Below are positions 1,036 through 10,182 of a stretch of 64,000 bases of DNA, one piece after another. Where the stretch lies: contig JAJYDV010000003.1 in the NCBI GenBank assembly GCA_021777375.1, positions 1 through 64,000 of the forward strand, in the 5' to 3' direction. Each line of letters opens with the position of its first letter. The first letter of the stretch is position 1. The translations under genes were made by a program, and so were the position numbers. The notes below the pieces were generated by a model. It saw only the letters and a list, made by a program, of their open reading frames with translations, made no database searches and was not told the DNA's origin. Source of the DNA: a bacterium (lineage in GTDB: Bacteria; Patescibacteriota; Saccharimonadia; Saccharimonadales; UBA4665).

Positions 1036-1584
1036 TTATTTAGCACTCCCTGAGGTTGTCGAAGCGCCGGCCAGTGTTACGCCGTTAGCTTGGGCTACCC
1101 CTACGATTAGATTTTTAACACTCGTCCTAAAACTTTGCAGGTCACTGATTTCACTCTTAAGGACACTTTGGAAGCCGGTTATTAAGGCTCGTGGATTACT
1201 ACCGCTACAGCTGAAGTTAGAGTTCGATTGCAGTGAACTTAGGTCGGAGCGTGTTTGTGACTCCGAGCTATTAACCGCAGCCACTAGTTGAGTGTAGTTG
1301 CTCGAGGTTTTTCCTTTAGTTACGTAGAATGCTTCTACCCTAGAGGCGATTGTACTGAATAGATTCAGCTGATTAGTGGCTCGTGTGTCGATACGGGTCA
1401 TTATTTGGTTGATAGCCTTCTCCCTGGCCACACACATCTTTTGCTGGGCGGTGGTTTGGGCTTGTTGGGCGGTTGCATTACCGCTACTAGCTTGAGCCGG
1501 TAGAGCGCTCGCTGATGCGCTCATAAGAGTAATCAGCGCCAGGCTGCTAATAATCAGCCCTAGTTTAGATAATATTTTATTCAT
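1036..1584 (-). CDS. exported hypothetical protein, cassette copy 1
   Basis: Signal peptide (ALPAQA), conserved Cys, helical region; paralog of 5755..6387; coupled to 737..1033. Confidence 0.75.
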   Translation of the reverse strand: MNKILSKLGLIISSLALITLMSASASALPAQASSGNATAQQAQTTAQQKMCVAREKAINQIMTRIDTRATNQLNLFSTIASRVEAFYVTKGKTSSNYTQLVAAVNSSESQTRSDLSSLQSNSNFSCSGSNPRALITGFQSVLKSEISDLQSFRTSVKNLIVGVAQANGVTLAGASTTSGSAK

Positions 1585-1662
1585 TGTATTGTTGATTAGC
1601 TTCCTTTAAGTTATATCAAAAGAATAAGCATTTAGGAGTGTAAAATCAAGCACAACCGCAGC

Positions 1663-1935
1663 TTAGTGTTTATGAAGATCGTAGATTGTAGCTGCAACAA
1701 CTACTAATATGGCGGCCAAGATATACAGGAGAATGAACCTAATGGCGTGCTTGGAATGAAAGGCAGTATGCCCACTCTCCGCGGCCGGTAGATTTAATGG
1801 CTGGTTAGCAATGGCCTTATTTTGAGTTGAGGATTCCTGCGGTTGCGTAGTCGATTCTCTGGCCGGTGGTTGTTCTAAGCCTGTTTTATTGGTTTGTTCG
1901 GTATTTGGAGCTGGCGCGCCAGTGCTATCTTCCAT
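1663..1935 (-). CDS. hypothetical protein, low-complexity N-terminus and C-terminal TM
   Basis: ORF with a single C-terminal TM (FILLYILAAILVVVAATIY). Confidence 0.5.
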   Translation of the reverse strand: MEDSTGAPAPNTEQTNKTGLEQPPARESTTQPQESSTQNKAIANQPLNLPAAESGHTAFHSKHAIRFILLYILAAILVVVAATIYDLHKH

Positions 1936-2021
1936 AACTTGAGCATAAGCGTTGAGAAGATTGTTTGCAATAACCGCCTCTTTAGCCCTCGTTATTTCAT
2001 GAATACAACGACTAATAATCT

Positions 2022-3278
2022 CTAGCTAGAGCTGCGGCTATCGATGTAGTCCAGGCAAAAGCGTTCGAAAATTGAGTTAGTCCAGCCGAAACCGATTTGG
2101 CTTGGATAGACACCTTTAGTCGGTGGTTTACCGGGCTGCAGAACGTTATATTTCTCTAGGAATACACCGTTTGGCTCAAACCAGGCTAGGTTAGTCTTCA
2201 ACCATTTCATGGCTATCCGGTTGGCTTCCTTGTCGTAGCCGTAGCGCTTTAGCCCTTCGACAACCAAAAAATGTAACGGTGCCCAGCCGTTAGGATAGGC
2301 CCATTGCATCGGTACGGAGCTGAGTATGTGCTGGCCGAATAAAACGGCGTCAGTGGTCGTTAAGCCGCCCTTAACTTCAAACCGCCGTAAAGCACGCACC
2401 ATTTTTTTGGCTTGATCCGGAGTCGCCATTCCGGCCCAAAGGGCATAATAACTCGCTAGGGAACTCACATTGCTACACTTGCCTTTAAGATAATCGTAGT
2501 CATAATAGAGACCCTTGCCGCTGTCCCACATCAGTTCGTTGATTACTTCTTTACGGCGATTGGCCGTTTCCTCCCACTTGGCAGCGACTGATGAATCGCC
2601 TTGTAACTTTGCACCTCGGGCAAAATCCATTTCGTATTTATAGAGCAGCACATTAAGGTCAATCGGCAGATACTCTAGCACCTTATGGTTAAAGCGCGGC
2701 GTGTAGTCCCAGCCGCTTTCAGTTTCAGCCAGGTCATTTAAATAATTAATATCGTAGTAGCGGGACAGTCCTTTGTAGACCAAGCGGGCATTAGGCTTAG
2801 CAGTTCCCATCCAAACTTTCCGATACTCGGATTCTGCGATTGCTAACGATTTCTTTAACCAGGTTTTACTCATCTGAAAACTATCATAGACATCCCATAT
2901 ATAGCTGGTTAAAAATGGGGGCTGCGAATGTCCAATAAGATAAACCCGTGAAGCGTTAGGGATTATCCCAAAACGTTCAAACTCTGCAAAAAGATCTTCT
3001 AAAATTCCCACAACCAGACTGCGATGTTCTTCGCTCAATAGAGCCTGAATCATGAAATAGCTATCCCAGTAGTAGAGCTCGTTAAAGTCAAATTCGTGTC
3101 CCTTCTCATAAGCCGGAACCAAATACGGCTTAGGAAGTGCTATCAGTGTCTCGTCGTCTTTACTCTGATCATGGATCAGGTTCTGCCAATAGTTTTTAAT
3201 GTAGTTGCGGGCTTTAGCTACATCTTTAGCGCTTAAAGGCTTATCTGCAGCGCCGTAGGAGTTACGTACATCAAACAT
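2022..3278 (-). CDS. trehalase-family (GH37-like) glycosidase
   Basis: YYWDSYFMIQALL and QWAYPNGWAPLHFLVVEGL match trehalase signature regions. Confidence 0.85.
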   Translation of the reverse strand: MFDVRNSYGAADKPLSAKDVAKARNYIKNYWQNLIHDQSKDDETLIALPKPYLVPAYEKGHEFDFNELYYWDSYFMIQALLSEEHRSLVVGILEDLFAEFERFGIIPNASRVYLIGHSQPPFLTSYIWDVYDSFQMSKTWLKKSLAIAESEYRKVWMGTAKPNARLVYKGLSRYYDINYLNDLAETESGWDYTPRFNHKVLEYLPIDLNVLLYKYEMDFARGAKLQGDSSVAAKWEETANRRKEVINELMWDSGKGLYYDYDYLKGKCSNVSSLASYYALWAGMATPDQAKKMVRALRRFEVKGGLTTTDAVLFGQHILSSVPMQWAYPNGWAPLHFLVVEGLKRYGYDKEANRIAMKWLKTNLAWFEPNGVFLEKYNVLQPGKPPTKGVYPSQIGFGWTNSIFERFCLDYIDSRSSS

Positions 3279-3334
3279 CTATGTTCTAAGCCTAGGCTAG
3301 GCATCAAGGCCCGTCAAGCTAGGCATGATTATTC

Positions 3335-4066
3335 CTAAAGATACTTGGAAAGATAGCTTAGAACACGTTCCCAAGCATCTTTAGCGGCCGGCTCATAGTA
3401 AGCAAACTTATTCGAATCATTGAAAAAAGCATGCGCGCAGTCCGGGTAGACCCTAGACTCAAAATCTACGCCGGCTTGTTTCATTGCTAAACTAACCGCA
3501 GGCAACGTACTAATCAGACCCTCATCGTTTTGGCCATAAAAGGCCCGAATCGGACTCTTTATCTTAGCTAGCTCGGACACTTCAGTTGTTACGTGCCCGT
3601 AGAAAGGCAAGGTTAGTTTTAGCCTTGGTTCTTCTATGGCTAGGCTGTAACTATAACTGCCCCCGAAGCAAAATCCATTCACCGCCACACGCTGCTTAAT
3701 CTCGGGCAGGTTATATAGATAATCGAAGCAGACTTTCAATTTACTAATTGTTTTAGAGGCAAAGTCCGGCTCTTGGATTGGCGCCATTAAAGCCCGCATC
3801 TTAGTTTGAGTGGCGTTACGCTTTTGGGGGTTAAATAAATCTTCCTGAAGCTCCGGGGTGGCATGAGCGGCTATATCCGTCTCGCTTAGCAAGTTAGGGG
3901 CTAGAGCGATGTAGCCTTGGCTAGCATAGCGATCGGCCACCGATTTAATGTGGTCGACTAATCCCCATACCTCATGAATCACAATTATCCCGCCCTTTAC
4001 CTCAGTTTTCGGGGTAGCTACGTAAGCTTTGAGCTTTTGGCCGCCGTACTCTAAATCCTGCCTCAT
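3335..4066 (-). CDS. dienelactone hydrolase family protein
   Basis: GGIIVIHEVWGL..., nucleophile region VNGFCFGGSYS, DCAHAFFND. Confidence 0.88.
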   Translation of the reverse strand: MRQDLEYGGQKLKAYVATPKTEVKGGIIVIHEVWGLVDHIKSVADRYASQGYIALAPNLLSETDIAAHATPELQEDLFNPQKRNATQTKMRALMAPIQEPDFASKTISKLKVCFDYLYNLPEIKQRVAVNGFCFGGSYSYSLAIEEPRLKLTLPFYGHVTTEVSELAKIKSPIRAFYGQNDEGLISTLPAVSLAMKQAGVDFESRVYPDCAHAFFNDSNKFAYYEPAAKDAWERVLSYLSKYL

Positions 4067-4165
4067 TATGGTTACTAATTATATACCGAGACGCCTTTTA
4101 GGGAGGTTAGAAATACCTTATCAGGGCTTTTAAAATAACATTTCTGACTAGTGTGGACATGTCTG

Positions 4166-5176
4166 TTAAGCGGATAAGCGGACTTCGGTTTCGTACCTGT
4201 TGTCGCTTAAATTGCCACCACTAATTAAGCAAACCACGTTTTTCCCTGAGATATCTTCAGTGCGGTTTAAGGCAGCTACCGATAAAGCTCCGGCCAGCTC
4301 AGCTCTTAATGGCCGGCGTCTTTCCCATAATTGCATCGTGGCTTTCCTTAACTCTAGATCAGATACTTCAACTGTCGCAGCTACCAGATGTCCGGCAAGT
4401 CGAAAAGGTAACTCGCCGACTTCCTTTACCGACGCTCCGTCAACAAAAGTAGAAATCGTTTCAAGCTGCGCCGGTCGACCATATTTCAGCGCTTCTTTTA
4501 GAGAAGCAGCACCTTCAGGTTCGGCGCCAATAACTTGTGCGTTAGGGTAGCGGTTTTTTATCGCCGTGGCAATTCCGGCCAACAAGCCCATGCCTCCTAC
4601 CGGGCACATAACGACGTCAATATTTGGTACCCGGTCCGCTATCTCTAGGCCCCACGTACCCTGTCCGGCAATAACTCTAAGATCATTAAAGGGATGAGCC
4701 ATGACTGCTCCCTTTTCGCGGCCAAAGTCCTTGGCGGCCCGTGAGGCCTCGTCGAAGCTGTCCCCGACTAGCTTAACTTCAGTTTGTTCGCCCCCAAAGT
4801 CTAATACACGGTTAATCTTATTGGCTGGCGTGTTTCTGGGCATGTAGACTCTGCACTTCACTCCCTCGCTATTACAGCAAAGAGCAATACCCTGGGCATG
4901 ATTGCCGGCGCTTGCAGTGACTACGCCGCGCTCTTTTTGGTTTTGGTCCAGATTGCTAATAAAGTTAAAAGCCCCTCGAATCTTATAAGCCCCGATCGGC
5001 TGATGCACTTCGCTGGCCAGCCAAACGTTAGCGGCGTAAGTTTCAGATAGCGCCTCGTCAAAACTTACTTCAGTCCTCAATACCGGGCTAAAGGGCTCCC
5101 TAAGCAGTTTGTCGGCAATCAGAATTTCACCCATCAGTTCTTGATTTAGCGAATTGTTTTGCTCAGTTCTAATCAT
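4166..5176 (-). CDS. ilvA: threonine dehydratase-like PLP enzyme, catalytic domain only
   Basis: PLP lysine motif IGAYKIRGAFNFI, SAGNHAQGIAL, PVGGMGLLAG; no C-terminal regulatory domain. Confidence 0.85.
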   Translation of the reverse strand: MIRTEQNNSLNQELMGEILIADKLLREPFSPVLRTEVSFDEALSETYAANVWLASEVHQPIGAYKIRGAFNFISNLDQNQKERGVVTASAGNHAQGIALCCNSEGVKCRVYMPRNTPANKINRVLDFGGEQTEVKLVGDSFDEASRAAKDFGREKGAVMAHPFNDLRVIAGQGTWGLEIADRVPNIDVVMCPVGGMGLLAGIATAIKNRYPNAQVIGAEPEGAASLKEALKYGRPAQLETISTFVDGASVKEVGELPFRLAGHLVAATVEVSDLELRKATMQLWERRRPLRAELAGALSVAALNRTEDISGKNVVCLISGGNLSDNRYETEVRLSA

Positions 5177-5204
5177 TTCATTGTTAACTATTAGTAAATA
5201 TTAA

Positions 5205-5228
5205 AAATCCTCCTTTTTGCGGAGGATT
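5205..5228 (-). terminator. hairpin AATCCTCC-N7-GGAGGATT with following U-rich tract
   Basis: 8-bp perfect stem; minus strand continues TTTAATATTT. Confidence 0.55.
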
Positions 5229-5366
5229 ATTGTTATTTGCTTGCCTGAAAATTGACCAAAGCTATAAGCACCCCCGCCGAGGAGTCATAATCATCTCCGA
5301 CATAATAATTGAGTTGCTCATAACTTTTTTATTATATACGCCAACCGCTTAAACCGCCAATAGCAG

Positions 5367-5396
5367 TCCTCCTAGGCATTGCAATACCTAGGAGGA
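5367..5396. repeat. 30-bp near-perfect palindrome TCCTCCTAGGcATTGCAATaCCTAGGAGGA
   Basis: 14 of 15 positions complementary; no U-tract on either side. Confidence 0.8.
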
Positions 5397-5447
5397 GTCT
5401 ATGTTAGTGTTGCTAAGTCCTTAGCAAAAAAGCGCAAAGCTCTAGCT

Positions 5448-5753
5448 TTAAAAACCAGAAGAATAGCTGCTTAGCTGACTGCTATCGACATTGCTGGAGC
5501 TAATACTGGTCTGATTAAGAGCGCTCAAAGCACTACTAAGATCAGATGCGGTATTAATTTGCGGGGCTGAAGGAGTAGAAGTCGCAGGCGATTGATAGCC
5601 GCCATTTAAAACTGAAATTGATGCTGTGGAATTGCTATTTTTGTTGTGTTCGTGCCAGACGAAAAAACCCGTGGCAACAATAGCTGCCGCAAGAACGACT
5701 ATTATTACCATTTCTACAATTGCAAACCCAGATTGAGTTAGTTGTTTTTTCAT
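5448..5753 (-). CDS. prepilin-like small membrane protein, cassette copy 2
   Basis: MKKQLTQSGFAIVEMVIIVVLAAAIVATGFF; C-terminus SDLSSALSALNQTS...QLSSYSSGF parallels copy 1; start trimmed to the ATG just after the upstream stop. Confidence 0.72.
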   Translation of the reverse strand: MKKQLTQSGFAIVEMVIIVVLAAAIVATGFFVWHEHNKNSNSTASISVLNGGYQSPATSTPSAPQINTASDLSSALSALNQTSISSSNVDSSQLSSYSSGF

Positions 5754-5754
5754 A

Positions 5755-6387
5755 TTATTGCTTACTCCCCTGTGCAGCAGTTGACTGATTGTTTGAAGAT
5801 ATATTAACCCCGTTAGCTGAAGCAACCCCTACGATAAGGTTCTTAACGGCCGTTCTGTAGTTTTGCAGGTCACTGATTTCAGTTTTTAAGTAACTCTGAA
5901 AAGCGGAAACCATTCCCTTTGGATTACTCGCACTACAGCTAAAGGTGCTGTTAGTCTGCAGAGTACCAAATTCAGTCTCAGCTTGAGTTTTTGCCGCCGA
6001 AACAGCCGCTAACAACTGACTGTAGTTACTTAGAGTCTTGCCTTTTTGAGTATAGAAATTTTCCACCCGGGTAGCTATGGTGCTAAAAAGAGTTATCTGG
6101 TTTTGGGCTCGGGTATCGATTCGGCTCATTATATTAGAGATGGCTTTTGAGCGGTTCTGACAGGCTTTTAGCTGTGCCGCCTGGAGATGTGCCTGGCCAT
6201 TAGCAAGCCCATTGCCCGATTGGCTAGATCCCGGGTTATTGGTGCTGTTGTATCCTGGATTACTCCCAGCAGTTTGGGTGGCGTGCGTAGTTGCTTGTGC
6301 CGGCAGGGCGAAAGCTATTGATCCGCCCATCACTACTAGAGCCAGCGAAGAGCTGATTAGCCCAAGTTTTGTGAAGTATTTTCGCAT
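5755..6387 (-). CDS. exported hypothetical protein, cassette copy 2
   Basis: Signal peptide (ALPAQA); KGMVSAFQSYLKTEISDLQNYRTAVKNLIVGVASANGV parallels copy 1. Confidence 0.75.
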   Translation of the reverse strand: MRKYFTKLGLISSSLALVVMGGSIAFALPAQATTHATQTAGSNPGYNSTNNPGSSQSGNGLANGQAHLQAAQLKACQNRSKAISNIMSRIDTRAQNQITLFSTIATRVENFYTQKGKTLSNYSQLLAAVSAAKTQAETEFGTLQTNSTFSCSASNPKGMVSAFQSYLKTEISDLQNYRTAVKNLIVGVASANGVNISSNNQSTAAQGSKQ

Positions 6388-6477
6388 GTTATTCCTTTTT
6401 AATTATTAACCGTGCTTTAAGCTTAAGGTTAAAGTTTTGGGTTGTCAATAATCTGAAGCATTGACTATATAATAGTT

Positions 6478-6714
6478 ATGTGGCAATGTTGCTTTATGAT
6501 TGACCGGACCGGGAAGATAAAGTATTTCGATAGATCAATTGAGGCAGCAGAAAGCATCTTAAGCCAACAGGAGACCATCGATAATTTGGGCTATGATAGA
6601 ATTTTAAATCTGTCGCGTTTACTAGGCAGAATCGTCCCGGTTGTTTCCGAGCAAGACGCTGTCCGCATGCCAAGGGAGTATCTCTCGGATAAGGTTTTAA
6701 AATACCCACATTAA
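6478..6714 (+). CDS. hypothetical protein (start may be the ATG at 6496)
   Basis: Isolated ORF downstream of TATAAT at 6468-6473. Confidence 0.4.
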   Translation: MWQCCFMIDRTGKIKYFDRSIEAAESILSQQETIDNLGYDRILNLSRLLGRIVPVVSEQDAVRMPREYLSDKVLKYPH

Positions 6715-6869: not shown

Positions 6870-8273
6870 TTAAGTACAGCAACTCATTTTTGTTATATCT
6901 TTAGTAAATGATACAGCCGCCAATTTGATGGCCTCGGATAACGTTGGAAATACAGGTAGCATATCATCAATGTCGTCTATCGTATTTTTGTTCTTTATTA
7001 GTACCATTGCTTGAGCTATTAAATCGCCTGCGTTAGGAGCTAAAATATGCATACCCATAATGACTTCAGTCTCAGGATGTATGGCTATCTTAATGGCTCC
7101 TTCGGTTCGGTTCGTTATTATAGCCTTTGGTAACTTATCAAAGCTAACGGTACGACAAGCGCAAACCTTCAATTCCGCCATTTGTTGATTTTCGGTATAG
7201 CCTATACTAGCTAACTGAGGATCCGTAAAAACCGTCCAGGGCACACTATGATAGTCAATGGACTTATTGGCCCCATTTAGGGCATTTTCAGCCGCGTATG
7301 TACCTTCACGTCCAGCCGTGGTCTCAAGTCTTAAAGGCAAGCTAGTTACATCACCAACTGCATAAATATGGGCCTGTGAAGTTTGCAGGTTCGACTGCGT
7401 AGCAACTGCTTGTTTATCACTTATCTCAACACCTGCTGCAGCAAGGTTTAACTCGCTAGTATTAGGAGCTTTGCCGGCAGCAAGCAGTATTTCGTCAACC
7501 TCGACAGTACTTTCGCCAGTTTCACTAGCATAAAACACTGTCTTAATTTTGTTCTCGGTAACCACTTTAGTAACTCGAACGCCGGTTTTAACGCTAATTC
7601 CTTCGTCAGTGAGCGCTTGTTGTAAACGCTCAGTTAATATAGGTTCGGCGCTGGGCATAATACTGGCTGCTCGTTGCAAAATGGTTACTTGACTACCAAA
7701 TCTGGCATATAGTTGGCTTAGCTCCAGCCCGACTGGGCCAGCTCCAATAACTGCTAAACGTTTCGGAACTGTTTTAAGCTGCATGGCTTCAATATGAGTT
7801 ATATAACCAGCTTCGGCTAATCCCTCAACCTCCGGCACGATTGCGGTTGAGCCAGTAGCAATAATAAACTTGTCTGCATTAATTTGCCGTTCTCCTACCT
7901 TAACGGCGCTACTTGAGACAAAAGCTGCCCTGCCTTCTATAAAAGTCACATTATCTAAACCTTTAAGTACCTTCTCGTATTTTTCCCTTCTCAGCTTTTC
8001 TACCAACGCCAGCTCATTAGCAACCACTGCAGCGTAGTCAGCTTTGTTTACTGCTAGTTCAATGCCCGGCACACCGTGATGTTTAGCGGTATGCAATAGC
8101 TCGGCAGCATGTAACAAAGTTTTAGAAGGCACACATCCAACATTAACGCATGTACCTCCAAGAGGTAGGCCAGAGTTAATAATGGCTGTTTTGGCTCCGA
8201 GTTCGTTAGCTTTAATGGCAGCGGCAAACGCACCTGCACCACCGCCGATGATTACTAGATCATAGTTGGGCAT
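6870..8273 (-). CDS. merA: mercury(II) reductase (MerA core, no N-terminal HMA domain)
   Basis: FAD GGGAGAFAAA, redox GGTCVNVGCVPSK, NAD-binding GAGPVGLELSQ, C-terminal vicinal Cys MSCCT. Confidence 0.87.
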   Translation of the reverse strand: MPNYDLVIIGGGAGAFAAAIKANELGAKTAIINSGLPLGGTCVNVGCVPSKTLLHAAELLHTAKHHGVPGIELAVNKADYAAVVANELALVEKLRREKYEKVLKGLDNVTFIEGRAAFVSSSAVKVGERQINADKFIIATGSTAIVPEVEGLAEAGYITHIEAMQLKTVPKRLAVIGAGPVGLELSQLYARFGSQVTILQRAASIMPSAEPILTERLQQALTDEGISVKTGVRVTKVVTENKIKTVFYASETGESTVEVDEILLAAGKAPNTSELNLAAAGVEISDKQAVATQSNLQTSQAHIYAVGDVTSLPLRLETTAGREGTYAAENALNGANKSIDYHSVPWTVFTDPQLASIGYTENQQMAELKVCACRTVSFDKLPKAIITNRTEGAIKIAIHPETEVIMGMHILAPNAGDLIAQAMVLIKNKNTIDDIDDMLPVFPTLSEAIKLAAVSFTKDITKMSCCT

Positions 8274-8317
8274 TTTTATCCTTTCTTAATATTTGTTGCT
8301 CTATCATTATGATCAAT

Positions 8318-8842
8318 TTAATGATCTTCCTTAATTTGGCAATTCGGGCAGTGGACTATCTGACGTACACTCATTAAGAAAGCGTAGATTAAAATCATTA
8401 AAGACACGAGAAGAATCAATGGCTCGTGTGTGGCTATAAAACCCTGAACGCCAGATAAGAAAGTTACATTAGGCAGTATAACGGCAATGAAAGCGATTAT
8501 TGAAGGTAATATAAAACTGCAGCAGAGTAAAGAGCCGAGCAATCCACTTATTCCACCTATGATTGTACCTGCAGAATGAGTTCGTTGACCGCTGGCTTTA
8601 AGTTTAAAGTTCATCGGTACTATTAAAGACAGAAGACCCGCCATAACAAAAGCAAATGCTACTAATTGTGAGGATAGGTAGCTAAGGTTTGTAAGACTAA
8701 TTTGACCCCCCGTATTACTTGCAGGTAAGACTATTAGATAAAGAAGAAATACTAAGACAAAAGTAATGATTCCAATTAGATGGTATTTTCTAGCATCGAA
8801 GGTAAAATAAATTGCTGCTTGAATCTTAGATATCCAGTTCAT
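8318..8842 (-). CDS. membrane protein with vicinal Cys (LLCCSFILP) and C-terminal CPNC; putative mercury transport component
   Basis: Multiple TM helices, CC in TM, located in the mer-like operon; start taken as MNWISK because TAA-A-ATG couples it to the upstream gene. Confidence 0.6.
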   Translation of the reverse strand: MNWISKIQAAIYFTFDARKYHLIGIITFVLVFLLYLIVLPASNTGGQISLTNLSYLSSQLVAFAFVMAGLLSLIVPMNFKLKASGQRTHSAGTIIGGISGLLGSLLCCSFILPSIIAFIAVILPNVTFLSGVQGFIATHEPLILLVSLMILIYAFLMSVRQIVHCPNCQIKEDH

Positions 8843-8843
8843 T

Positions 8844-9401
8844 TTATGTACTCTTAGCAAATTGTAAAATCGAGCTCATTGTTGCAGACGGAGTAGAATT
8901 AACGGCCCGGATAACGCCGTTGGGATTAATTAAGTAATAAATGTCAGGGGTATTATCTGGATTATAGCTAGAAGTTAATGATTGACTTGCTTCCCCAAAA
9001 TAAAAGTTTGATGGTAAGGAGTTGGCATTAGTAGTGTCAGAAATAAATTGTTGCATTGATGGACCCGAATACCCAGCATCTCCGTACGTCTCAAGTGTAA
9101 CTATATTCAGACCGTCTTTTTGAAGAGTAGGAGCGTTACTAATTAGTGTTTGTAAGCTTGCCTGACATGACGAGCACCATGTAGCCAGTAGGTAAACCAT
9201 TAGTTTCTTTCCCTGATAACTAGTTAACGAAATAGGTTTACCCTGAATGTTAGTAAAGACAGCCGGAACTAACGGTTTATTCACGGTAGCCGTTTGAAGT
9301 GTTTTAGTCGATTTGGGTTTTTGATGATTATTAGCTATGCCAATAGCAAATAATCCACCTACCAAGACGATTATAATTATTATAAATACTTTCTTGTTCA
9401 T
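8844..9401 (-). CDS. thioredoxin-fold (TlpA/ResA-like) membrane-anchored protein
   Basis: N-terminal TM; LLATWCSSCQASLQTL active-site CxxC. Confidence 0.82.
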   Translation of the reverse strand: MNKKVFIIIIIVLVGGLFAIGIANNHQKPKSTKTLQTATVNKPLVPAVFTNIQGKPISLTSYQGKKLMVYLLATWCSSCQASLQTLISNAPTLQKDGLNIVTLETYGDAGYSGPSMQQFISDTTNANSLPSNFYFGEASQSLTSSYNPDNTPDIYYLINPNGVIRAVNSTPSATMSSILQFAKST

Positions 9402-9460
9402 TCATTATTCTTCATTCTTCGTTCTCTTTTTGACGACCATAGTATTAGTTAATCCATTTC

Positions 9461-9691
9461 CTAATAATTCTTAACAAATCCATTATTCTTATGTCGATGT
9501 TTAATCAAAAAATAAACAATTGAAGTCAGCAATACCCCAAAAATCAATAAACTAACTTTGTTGTTTTTTAAATAAGAAACTATGGCTCCAGTAGTTATAA
9601 GTAAAAATATAGCGGGGCCAAAGCAGCACACGACTAATGCCAGTGGAGCGATTAGCATGATTCTAGGTAACTTTTCGTCAGTCTTATGCAT
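9461..9691 (-). CDS. small MerT-like membrane protein
   Basis: VVCCFGPAIFLLITTGAIVSYL: CC in first TM; start trimmed to MHKTDEK, coupled to regulator stop (TAATATG). Confidence 0.6.
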   Translation of the reverse strand: MHKTDEKLPRIMLIAPLALVVCCFGPAIFLLITTGAIVSYLKNNKVSLLIFGVLLTSIVYFLIKHRHKNNGFVKNY

Positions 9692-9692
9692 A

Positions 9693-10001
9693 TTAGTTAC
9701 CAATAAGACTGATGATATTATCAAAGGCATTATTTGCTAAGGAATAATAAACTGTTTGAGCCTCTTTTCTAGAAGTAACCATATTAACTGCTCGTAATTT
9801 ATTCAGGCTATGTGAAGCATTGGACACAGTTGTGCCAACTAATTCAGCTATAGTAGTAACGTTCAGCTCTGAATGATACCGTAGTAAATAGCAAATCTTG
9901 AGTTTAGTGGCATCTCCTATAACTCCACATTGACGGGCGCATAACTCAAGGGCTTCGTTGTTTTGTAGTTCTTGTTTCACTGATTGAGTATTTGAACGCA
10001 T
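9693..10001 (-). CDS. ArsR-family transcriptional regulator of mer-like operon
   Basis: wHTH ATKLKICYLLRYH..VTTIAELVGTTVSNASHSLNKLRAVNMVTSRKEAQTVYYSL; Cys residues LCARQCG; start trimmed to MRSNTQ because the longer ORF overlaps the promoter. Confidence 0.82.
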   Translation of the reverse strand: MRSNTQSVKQELQNNEALELCARQCGVIGDATKLKICYLLRYHSELNVTTIAELVGTTVSNASHSLNKLRAVNMVTSRKEAQTVYYSLANNAFDNIISLIGN

Positions 10002-10007
10002 ATTCAC

Positions 10008-10046
10008 ATAATAAACAGCTTTCATTTTTAAGTCAATTAAGTGACT
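10008..10046 (-). promoter_or_regulatory. sigma70-type promoter TTGACT-N17-TATTAT with AGTCA-N6-TGACT dyad over the -35
   Basis: -35 at 10031-10036, -10 at 10008-10013; predicted TSS falls at the ATG. Confidence 0.7.
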
Positions 10047-10105
10047 ACTCTAAGCGATGCACAACATTAAACAAAAAAGGCTCCTCAGAGCCTGACAGTC
10101 GTTTT

Positions 10106-10182
10106 TGGTGCGAGTGAAGAGACTCTAACTCTCGACCTCTTCCTTGGCAAGGAAGCGCTCTAAACAACTGAGCTACACTCGC
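10106..10182 (-). tRNA. tRNA-Gly (anticodon GCC)
   Basis: Acceptor GCGAGTG, anticodon loop TTGCCAA, encoded CCA. Confidence 0.92.

Follow-up and report, generated by a model that had tools for sequence, protein, structure and literature searches.

Does a bacterium with a genome of 724 kb carry a working mercury resistance operon, and if so, how did it come by it? The question is raised by five neighbouring genes in the window, by which we mean the whole analysed stretch of 64,000 nucleotides. The genome (97.9% complete) belongs to an order in which relatives carry the title Candidatus Saccharibacteria. Saccharibacteria have tiny genomes and are believed to depend on other bacteria as hosts. 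A preliminary description of the DNA had called the genes a complete mercury-resistance-like operon, which would be unexpected in an ultra-small host-dependent genome. That is less unexpected than stated, since MerA is known from CPR bacteria, in which clades K12-K14 (Daviesbacteria, Peregrinibacteria, Giovannonibacteria and others) were described by Christakis et al. 2021 (PMC8261052). The text of that paper does not mention Saccharibacteria, and a search of openly accessible papers found nothing on mer or merA in this group.

We regard it as very probable that the genes form a functional mer operon of the CPR ArsR-MerA type, which is carried as cargo at a tRNA-Gly hot spot of this Saccharibacterium. 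New are the saccharibacterial mer operon, its divergent transport/thiol module and the tRNA-island setting; the CPR MerA itself is known.

Operon layout and the identity of the flavoprotein

The operon occupies positions 6870-10025 of the minus strand and consists of arsR, CC1, the gene of a TlpA-like thioredoxin, CC2 and merA (Table 1). All five open reading frames are present as first described, and so are the motifs GGTCVNVGCVPSK, the C-terminal SCCT, the LLCC in a transmembrane segment and the C-terminal CPNC. The tight coupling that had been proposed holds for two of the four junctions, arsR/CC1 (TAA-T-ATG) and TlpA/CC2 (TAA-A-ATG), where the genes are 1 nt apart. It does not hold for the other two, as gaps of 59 bp and 44 bp separate CC1 from the thioredoxin gene and CC2 from merA. 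No MerP-like reading frame was found among the five genes and no merB in the operon. To call the operon complete was too strong, because MerP is absent, as is a gene that four sister operons possess. Comparison with relatives indicates purifying selection on all operon genes (dN/dS about 0.08-0.35).

Table 1. Features of the mer locus and its surroundings (positions in the window)
Feature	Position	Strand	Description	Basis
arsR	9693..10001	-	ArsR/SmtB-family repressor	NCBIfam NF033788
CC1	9461..9691	-	76-aa two-TM protein with VVCCFGP, MerF-like	profile-profile match
TlpA/ResA-like thioredoxin	8844..9401	-	membrane-anchored, WCSSC	Pfam, NCBIfam
CC2	8318..8842	-	174-aa four-helix membrane protein	hhalign to MerT
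merA	6870..8273	-	467-aa core, without N-terminal NmerA domain	TIGR02053
Putative promoter/operator	9987..10036	-		conservation in 6 mer loci, promoter scan
tRNA-Gly(gcc) and terminator-like hairpin	10078..10182	-		ARAGORN, terminator scan
Truncated 5' gene remnant	6478..6714	+		comparison with sister genome G062

Judged by its sequence, the flavoprotein is a mercuric reductase, as had been suggested. It passes the MerA equivalog TIGR02053 of NCBIfam with 519.7 bits (cut-off 454.45) and contains all six signature residues C207, C212, Y264, F605, C628 and C629 (CCYFCC in RC607 numbering). The numbering was derived from an alignment to 5x1y, in which the positions fall exactly on RC607 207, 264, 605 and 628; Y264 is the conserved Tyr of KYEKVL. 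C207/C212, Y264, Y or F605 and C628/C629 are the MerA criteria used in PMC3466566 and PMC8261052. The solved structures closest to the protein are the mercuric reductases 5x1y, 4ywo and 1zk7.

It is extremely unlikely that the flavoprotein is instead dihydrolipoamide dehydrogenase (LPD)-like or another disulfide reductase, working with the TlpA thioredoxin in an extracytoplasmic thiol-redox system. Such a system would account for a thioredoxin within the operon, and CcdA/DsbD-like membrane electron carriers adjoin merA in other CPR loci. However, the protein passes the MerA cut-off and stays with 358.6 bits under that of the LPD model TIGR01350 (408.8). It also possesses Y264 and the terminal CC, both of which are absent from the LPD rows compared. 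In a tree of 49 rows the LPDs split off from the MerAs with a support of 99/97, so that the grouping with dihydrolipoamide dehydrogenases considered earlier is not observed. The MerC and MerF-like proteins linked to these reductases argue against a thiol-redox system as well.

The same tree, in which few of the archaeal, Bacteroidota and Chloroflexota MerAs are represented and which does not reach the deep origin, unites the saccharibacterial MerAs and one sequence from an actinobacterial MAG in a group (100/100) that nests inside a CPR MerA clade (100/99). The CPR MerAs that were fetched carry F605 and fall into one clade with that of the window. F605 is shared by 4ywo and by the 15 other MerAs from Saccharibacteria, CPR genomes and gw902; it is the type seen in Metallosphaera and the usual residue of archaeal MerAs (PMC3466566, PMC8261052). 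Typical actinobacterial MerAs contain Y605 and form a separate clade, and an actinobacterial origin of the window MerA was rejected on the basis of this tree.

ArsR-regulated mer operons, in which an ArsR-family repressor stands over merA as it does in the window, are known from Streptomyces lividans and Sulfolobus (PMC3466566). The comparison with actinobacterial operons of this type was right in so far as arsR is linked to a true MerA, whereas the lineage of both proteins is one that extends across the CPR and not the usual actinobacterial one.

Membrane proteins, thioredoxin and sister operons

In a profile-profile comparison (hhalign) CC1 aligns with MerF over 65 columns, CC on CC, with a probability of 94.9 and an E-value of 4e-8. 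The MerF profile was built from eight plasmid MerF sequences of seven annotated loci. The score of 43.7 was reached by none of 60 block shuffles, the best of which scored 28.2. CC1 is predicted to form two transmembrane helices with the CC pair in the first one. Compared with MerF (PF11431) it lacks the second, C-terminal CC pair, which is absent too from the annotated MerFs of loci L081 and L078, and it remains under Pfam detection; the Pfam cut-offs of MerF and MerT are reached by neither CC1 nor CC2. This strong profile match marks CC1 as a probable MerF-like protein. An assignment of CC1 to MerT was rejected, as its score was not above those of shuffles. According to a passage of PMC5500634 that cites mutation work, the vicinal cysteines of MerT and MerF are needed for transport and MerF alone suffices.

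CC2 is predicted to contain four helices, with LLCC in the third (TM3) and CPNC at the C-terminus; the AlphaFold model is of low confidence (mean pLDDT 49). Its C-terminal half matches MerT weakly (probability 36.7), with a score above all 60 shuffles, and shows the MerT-type arrangement of CC and Cys pair. In contrast to classical MerT, two extra helices precede this half and the third MerT helix is missing. The C-terminal half may thus be called weakly MerT-like, as a lead and not as membership. Among the 294 genomes of the order, convincing full-length CC2 homologues are limited to genomes with this MerA; two further matches are weak and interrupted by stops. The earlier remark that vicinal cysteines in a TM helix are a MerT-type feature needs refinement: the small CC protein fits MerF, and the larger one fits MerT weakly.

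The TlpA-like protein scores above the cut-offs of the Pfam families AhpC-TSA (37.1 bits) and Redoxin (31.8 bits) and resembles ResA/DsbE (NCBIfam). It does not match MerP (probability 1.7). As roughly one in two mer operons in the survey of PMC3466566 has no MerP, its lack in the window is not decisive. Classical mer operons of the Tn501/Tn21 type (merR-merT-merP-merC/F-merA) are alike in combining membrane CC transporters with a cytosolic MerA. The window operon differs from them in having ArsR for MerR and a TlpA protein, and in lacking MerP and the NmerA domain.

Two groundwater Saccharibacteria, gw487 and gw137, have the order arsR-MerC-merA. In the one genome scanned MerC (PF03203) is above the Pfam gathering score, and the other protein is its close homologue. 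On sequence grounds this MerC is the best independent link of the operon family to mercury. In four relatives merA is preceded by an extra gene for an anchored protein of 174-191 aa ending in NCC (mean pLDDT 54), which is limited to these four among 294 genomes and missing in the window. The gene arsR adjoins or lies near merA in six other CPR genomes. Several CPR relatives carry arsR-merA alone, to which the window operon adds the MerF-like, MerT-like and TlpA genes. In another CPR genome (L046) the order arsR-TlpA-like-CcdA-like-merA is found, and a thioredoxin thus recurs beside merA.

Could the substrate be something other than inorganic mercury? A MerA-type reductase and import system for a different soft metal or metalloid (Au, Ag or an organomercurial, for instance) would fit the divergent accessory proteins and the fact that many metals are sensed by ArsR regulators. 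A MerA with a noncanonical residue at position 605 is untested according to PMC8261052, and we found no biochemically tested member of the CPR F605 MerA clade. Such a substrate is nevertheless very unlikely, because F605 is usual in archaeal MerAs and those groups of the MerA tree in which archaeal sequences occur contain reductases confirmed for Hg(II) (PMC3466566, PMC8261052), sister operons contain MerC, and merB is lacking from the operon.

Other arrangements were observed as well. In the operon of G616 (L038 2540-3148) the membrane and thioredoxin genes between arsR and merA are replaced by a gene for an NADPH-dependent FMN reductase-like protein. The MerA of the Simkania plasmid pSn (L077 2902-5022) is a single protein of about 700 aa with a C-terminal extension past the core, possibly a membrane-domain fusion.

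Predicted regulation and proposed working

ArsR reaches 67 bits with NF033788 (cut-off 55). Its reading frame is open from 10025; however, the conserved position of the promoter makes the ATG at 10001 the likely start, which gives a protein of 102 aa. C21 and C37 are invariant in an alignment of 12 mer ArsRs, of which eleven belong to CPR genomes and the twelfth to an actinobacterial MAG. The predicted promoter comprises a -35 box TTGACT (10036-10031), a spacer of 17 nt and a -10 box TATTAT (10013-10008), followed after 6 nt by the ATG. As the -10 box ends 6 nt before the ATG, a leaderless arsR transcript starting at 10001 is predicted. The sequence TANTATNTGAATATGCRTTCAARTA is kept in six mer loci, which have TANTATNTGAAT-ATG-CRTTCAARTA in common while the rest of the upstream DNA is unalignable; a -35-like hexamer at a distance of 17 nt is present in five of the six.

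An imperfect dyad (10012-10003 / 9996-9987) spans both the -10 box and the ATG. Its arms, AGTATTTGAA and TTCAAATACT, are perfect over 10 bp in gw487 and gw137 and agree in 8 of 10 positions in the window; the right arm is partly coding sequence, which confounds the dyad. Promoter and dyad together suggest autorepression by ArsR.

The following working is proposed. Without Hg(II), ArsR would keep the operon repressed by occupying the dyad that covers the -10 box and the ATG of its own leaderless transcript. Hg(II) would be bound by the two invariant cysteines and thereby release ArsR. Extracytoplasmic Hg(II) would be handled by thiols, those of the anchored TlpA-like protein and, where relatives have it, of the NCC protein, and passed on to the vicinal cysteines of MerF-like CC1 and MerT-like CC2. 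It would then cross to the cytosolic side, where CPNC of CC2 is placed, and reach the C-terminal CC of MerA. This FAD-dependent enzyme would reduce it with NAD(P)H to volatile Hg(0). The sequences show the gene content, the family and active-site residues of MerA, the relation of CC1 to MerF, the conserved promoter with its dyad and the context of the insertion. What we infer is the specificity for Hg(II), the order of the relay, the binding by ArsR and the parts played by TlpA and CC2. A more specific version, in which the TlpA-type thioredoxin (WCSSC) and the NCC protein of relatives constitute an extracytoplasmic relay that captures Hg(II) and supplies a split MerF-like/MerT-like importer, and in which this new module has spread among epibionts via the tRNA-Gly site, is put forward tentatively and is rather doubtful.

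The tRNA-Gly site and the distribution of the operon

The operon lies directly after a tRNA-Gly(gcc) gene (10106-10182), which is followed by the terminator-like hairpin (10093-10078), and this is the left edge of a variable region. The homology of the ligA-tRNA-Ala-Phe-Gly block to genomes of the same genus ends at the 3' end of tRNA-Gly (10105). On the other side, sister genome G062 is 97.3% identical at the nucleotide level over 1405-6674 and then diverges. The remnant listed in Table 1 is the 5' start of a gene whose intact form in G062 encodes 342 aa, and the end of homology at 6674 marks the right edge of the insert. MerA was not found in G062, a genome of 81% completeness in which mer could lie on missing contigs.

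A serine recombinase abuts the same tRNA-Gly in three genomes of the genus (G062, G048 and G057), and the mer operon of G616 begins just after a tRNA-Gly 3' end. In G319, of another CPR class, a serine recombinase lies at a tRNA-Val beside arsR-merA. In the window neither a duplicated tRNA 3' end (att) nor, at the mer locus, a recombinase was found. The tRNA-Gly is presumed to be the integration site, and the sequence data fit a mer operon that is cargo in a tRNA-Gly integration hot spot.

Two observations in the same regions may be added. The recombinase gene beside arsR-merA in G319 (L041 1742-3595) is flanked by perfect inverted repeats of 135 bp and is possibly part of an invertible or mobile unit. 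The window segments 5755-6387 and 1036-1584 encode paralogous secreted proteins of about 200 aa without a Pfam family; the former has matches in 16 of 19 genomes of the genus, usually followed by a short pilin-like gene.

MerA of this level is encoded by four of the 19 genomes of the genus, the window genome counted, and by one further genus of the family. Eight of the 294 genomes of the order contain it, and eight of 382 sampled genomes of the phylum are over the cut-off. The operon is thus sporadic and not ubiquitous, which answers the check on presence and absence. G616 shares 83% identity with the window in MerA and 54% in LigA, the groundwater genomes 77-78% and 64%. As G616 is farther by LigA yet closer by MerA than the groundwater genomes, horizontal transfer inside the order is indicated. 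The operon is also more AT-rich than its surroundings, as had been noted (GC 0.394 vs 0.46 for the window), and GC3 is 0.27-0.35 in the mer genes vs 0.40-0.49 in six housekeeping genes. Sporadic occurrence, low GC3, the MerA/LigA mismatch, the tRNA-Gly edge and the gene truncated in comparison to mer-free G062 make the suggested acquisition probable.

An operon that is ancestral and vertical in the genus, lost in most members, with a tRNA-Gly location that reflects conserved gene order, is unlikely. It draws on the same 210-aa and LytR-type genes that are neighbours of mer in G051, G052, G061 and partly G010. MerA identity does not track host divergence, though, the gene cut short at the junction is whole in the closest sister without mer, and the GC3 of the mer genes is lower. 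The gene order partly shared in G051, G052 and G061 indicates that the residence of mer in the genus may be older than the window junction alone would suggest.

A relative was seen in another phylum. The Actinomycetota MAG NC_groundwater_902 (L016 7647-9395) contains an arsR-merA pair that is 73% identical to that of the window and takes the sister position to the saccharibacterial clade, with a GC content of 0.464 vs 0.527 for the contig. Identity is near 40% in all 24 remaining actinobacterial genomes that have a MerA match. A transfer between Saccharibacteria and an actinobacterium is possible, as is a binning or assembly error.

A self-contained, sporadic detoxification operon would mean that Saccharibacteria meet Hg(II) directly and swap adaptive cargo with one another, perhaps across phyla, considering the near operon relative in the actinobacterial MAG. 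The operon would represent a small variant of mercury transport, and CC2 and the NCC protein are possible operon-specific families that are missed by standard mer annotation.
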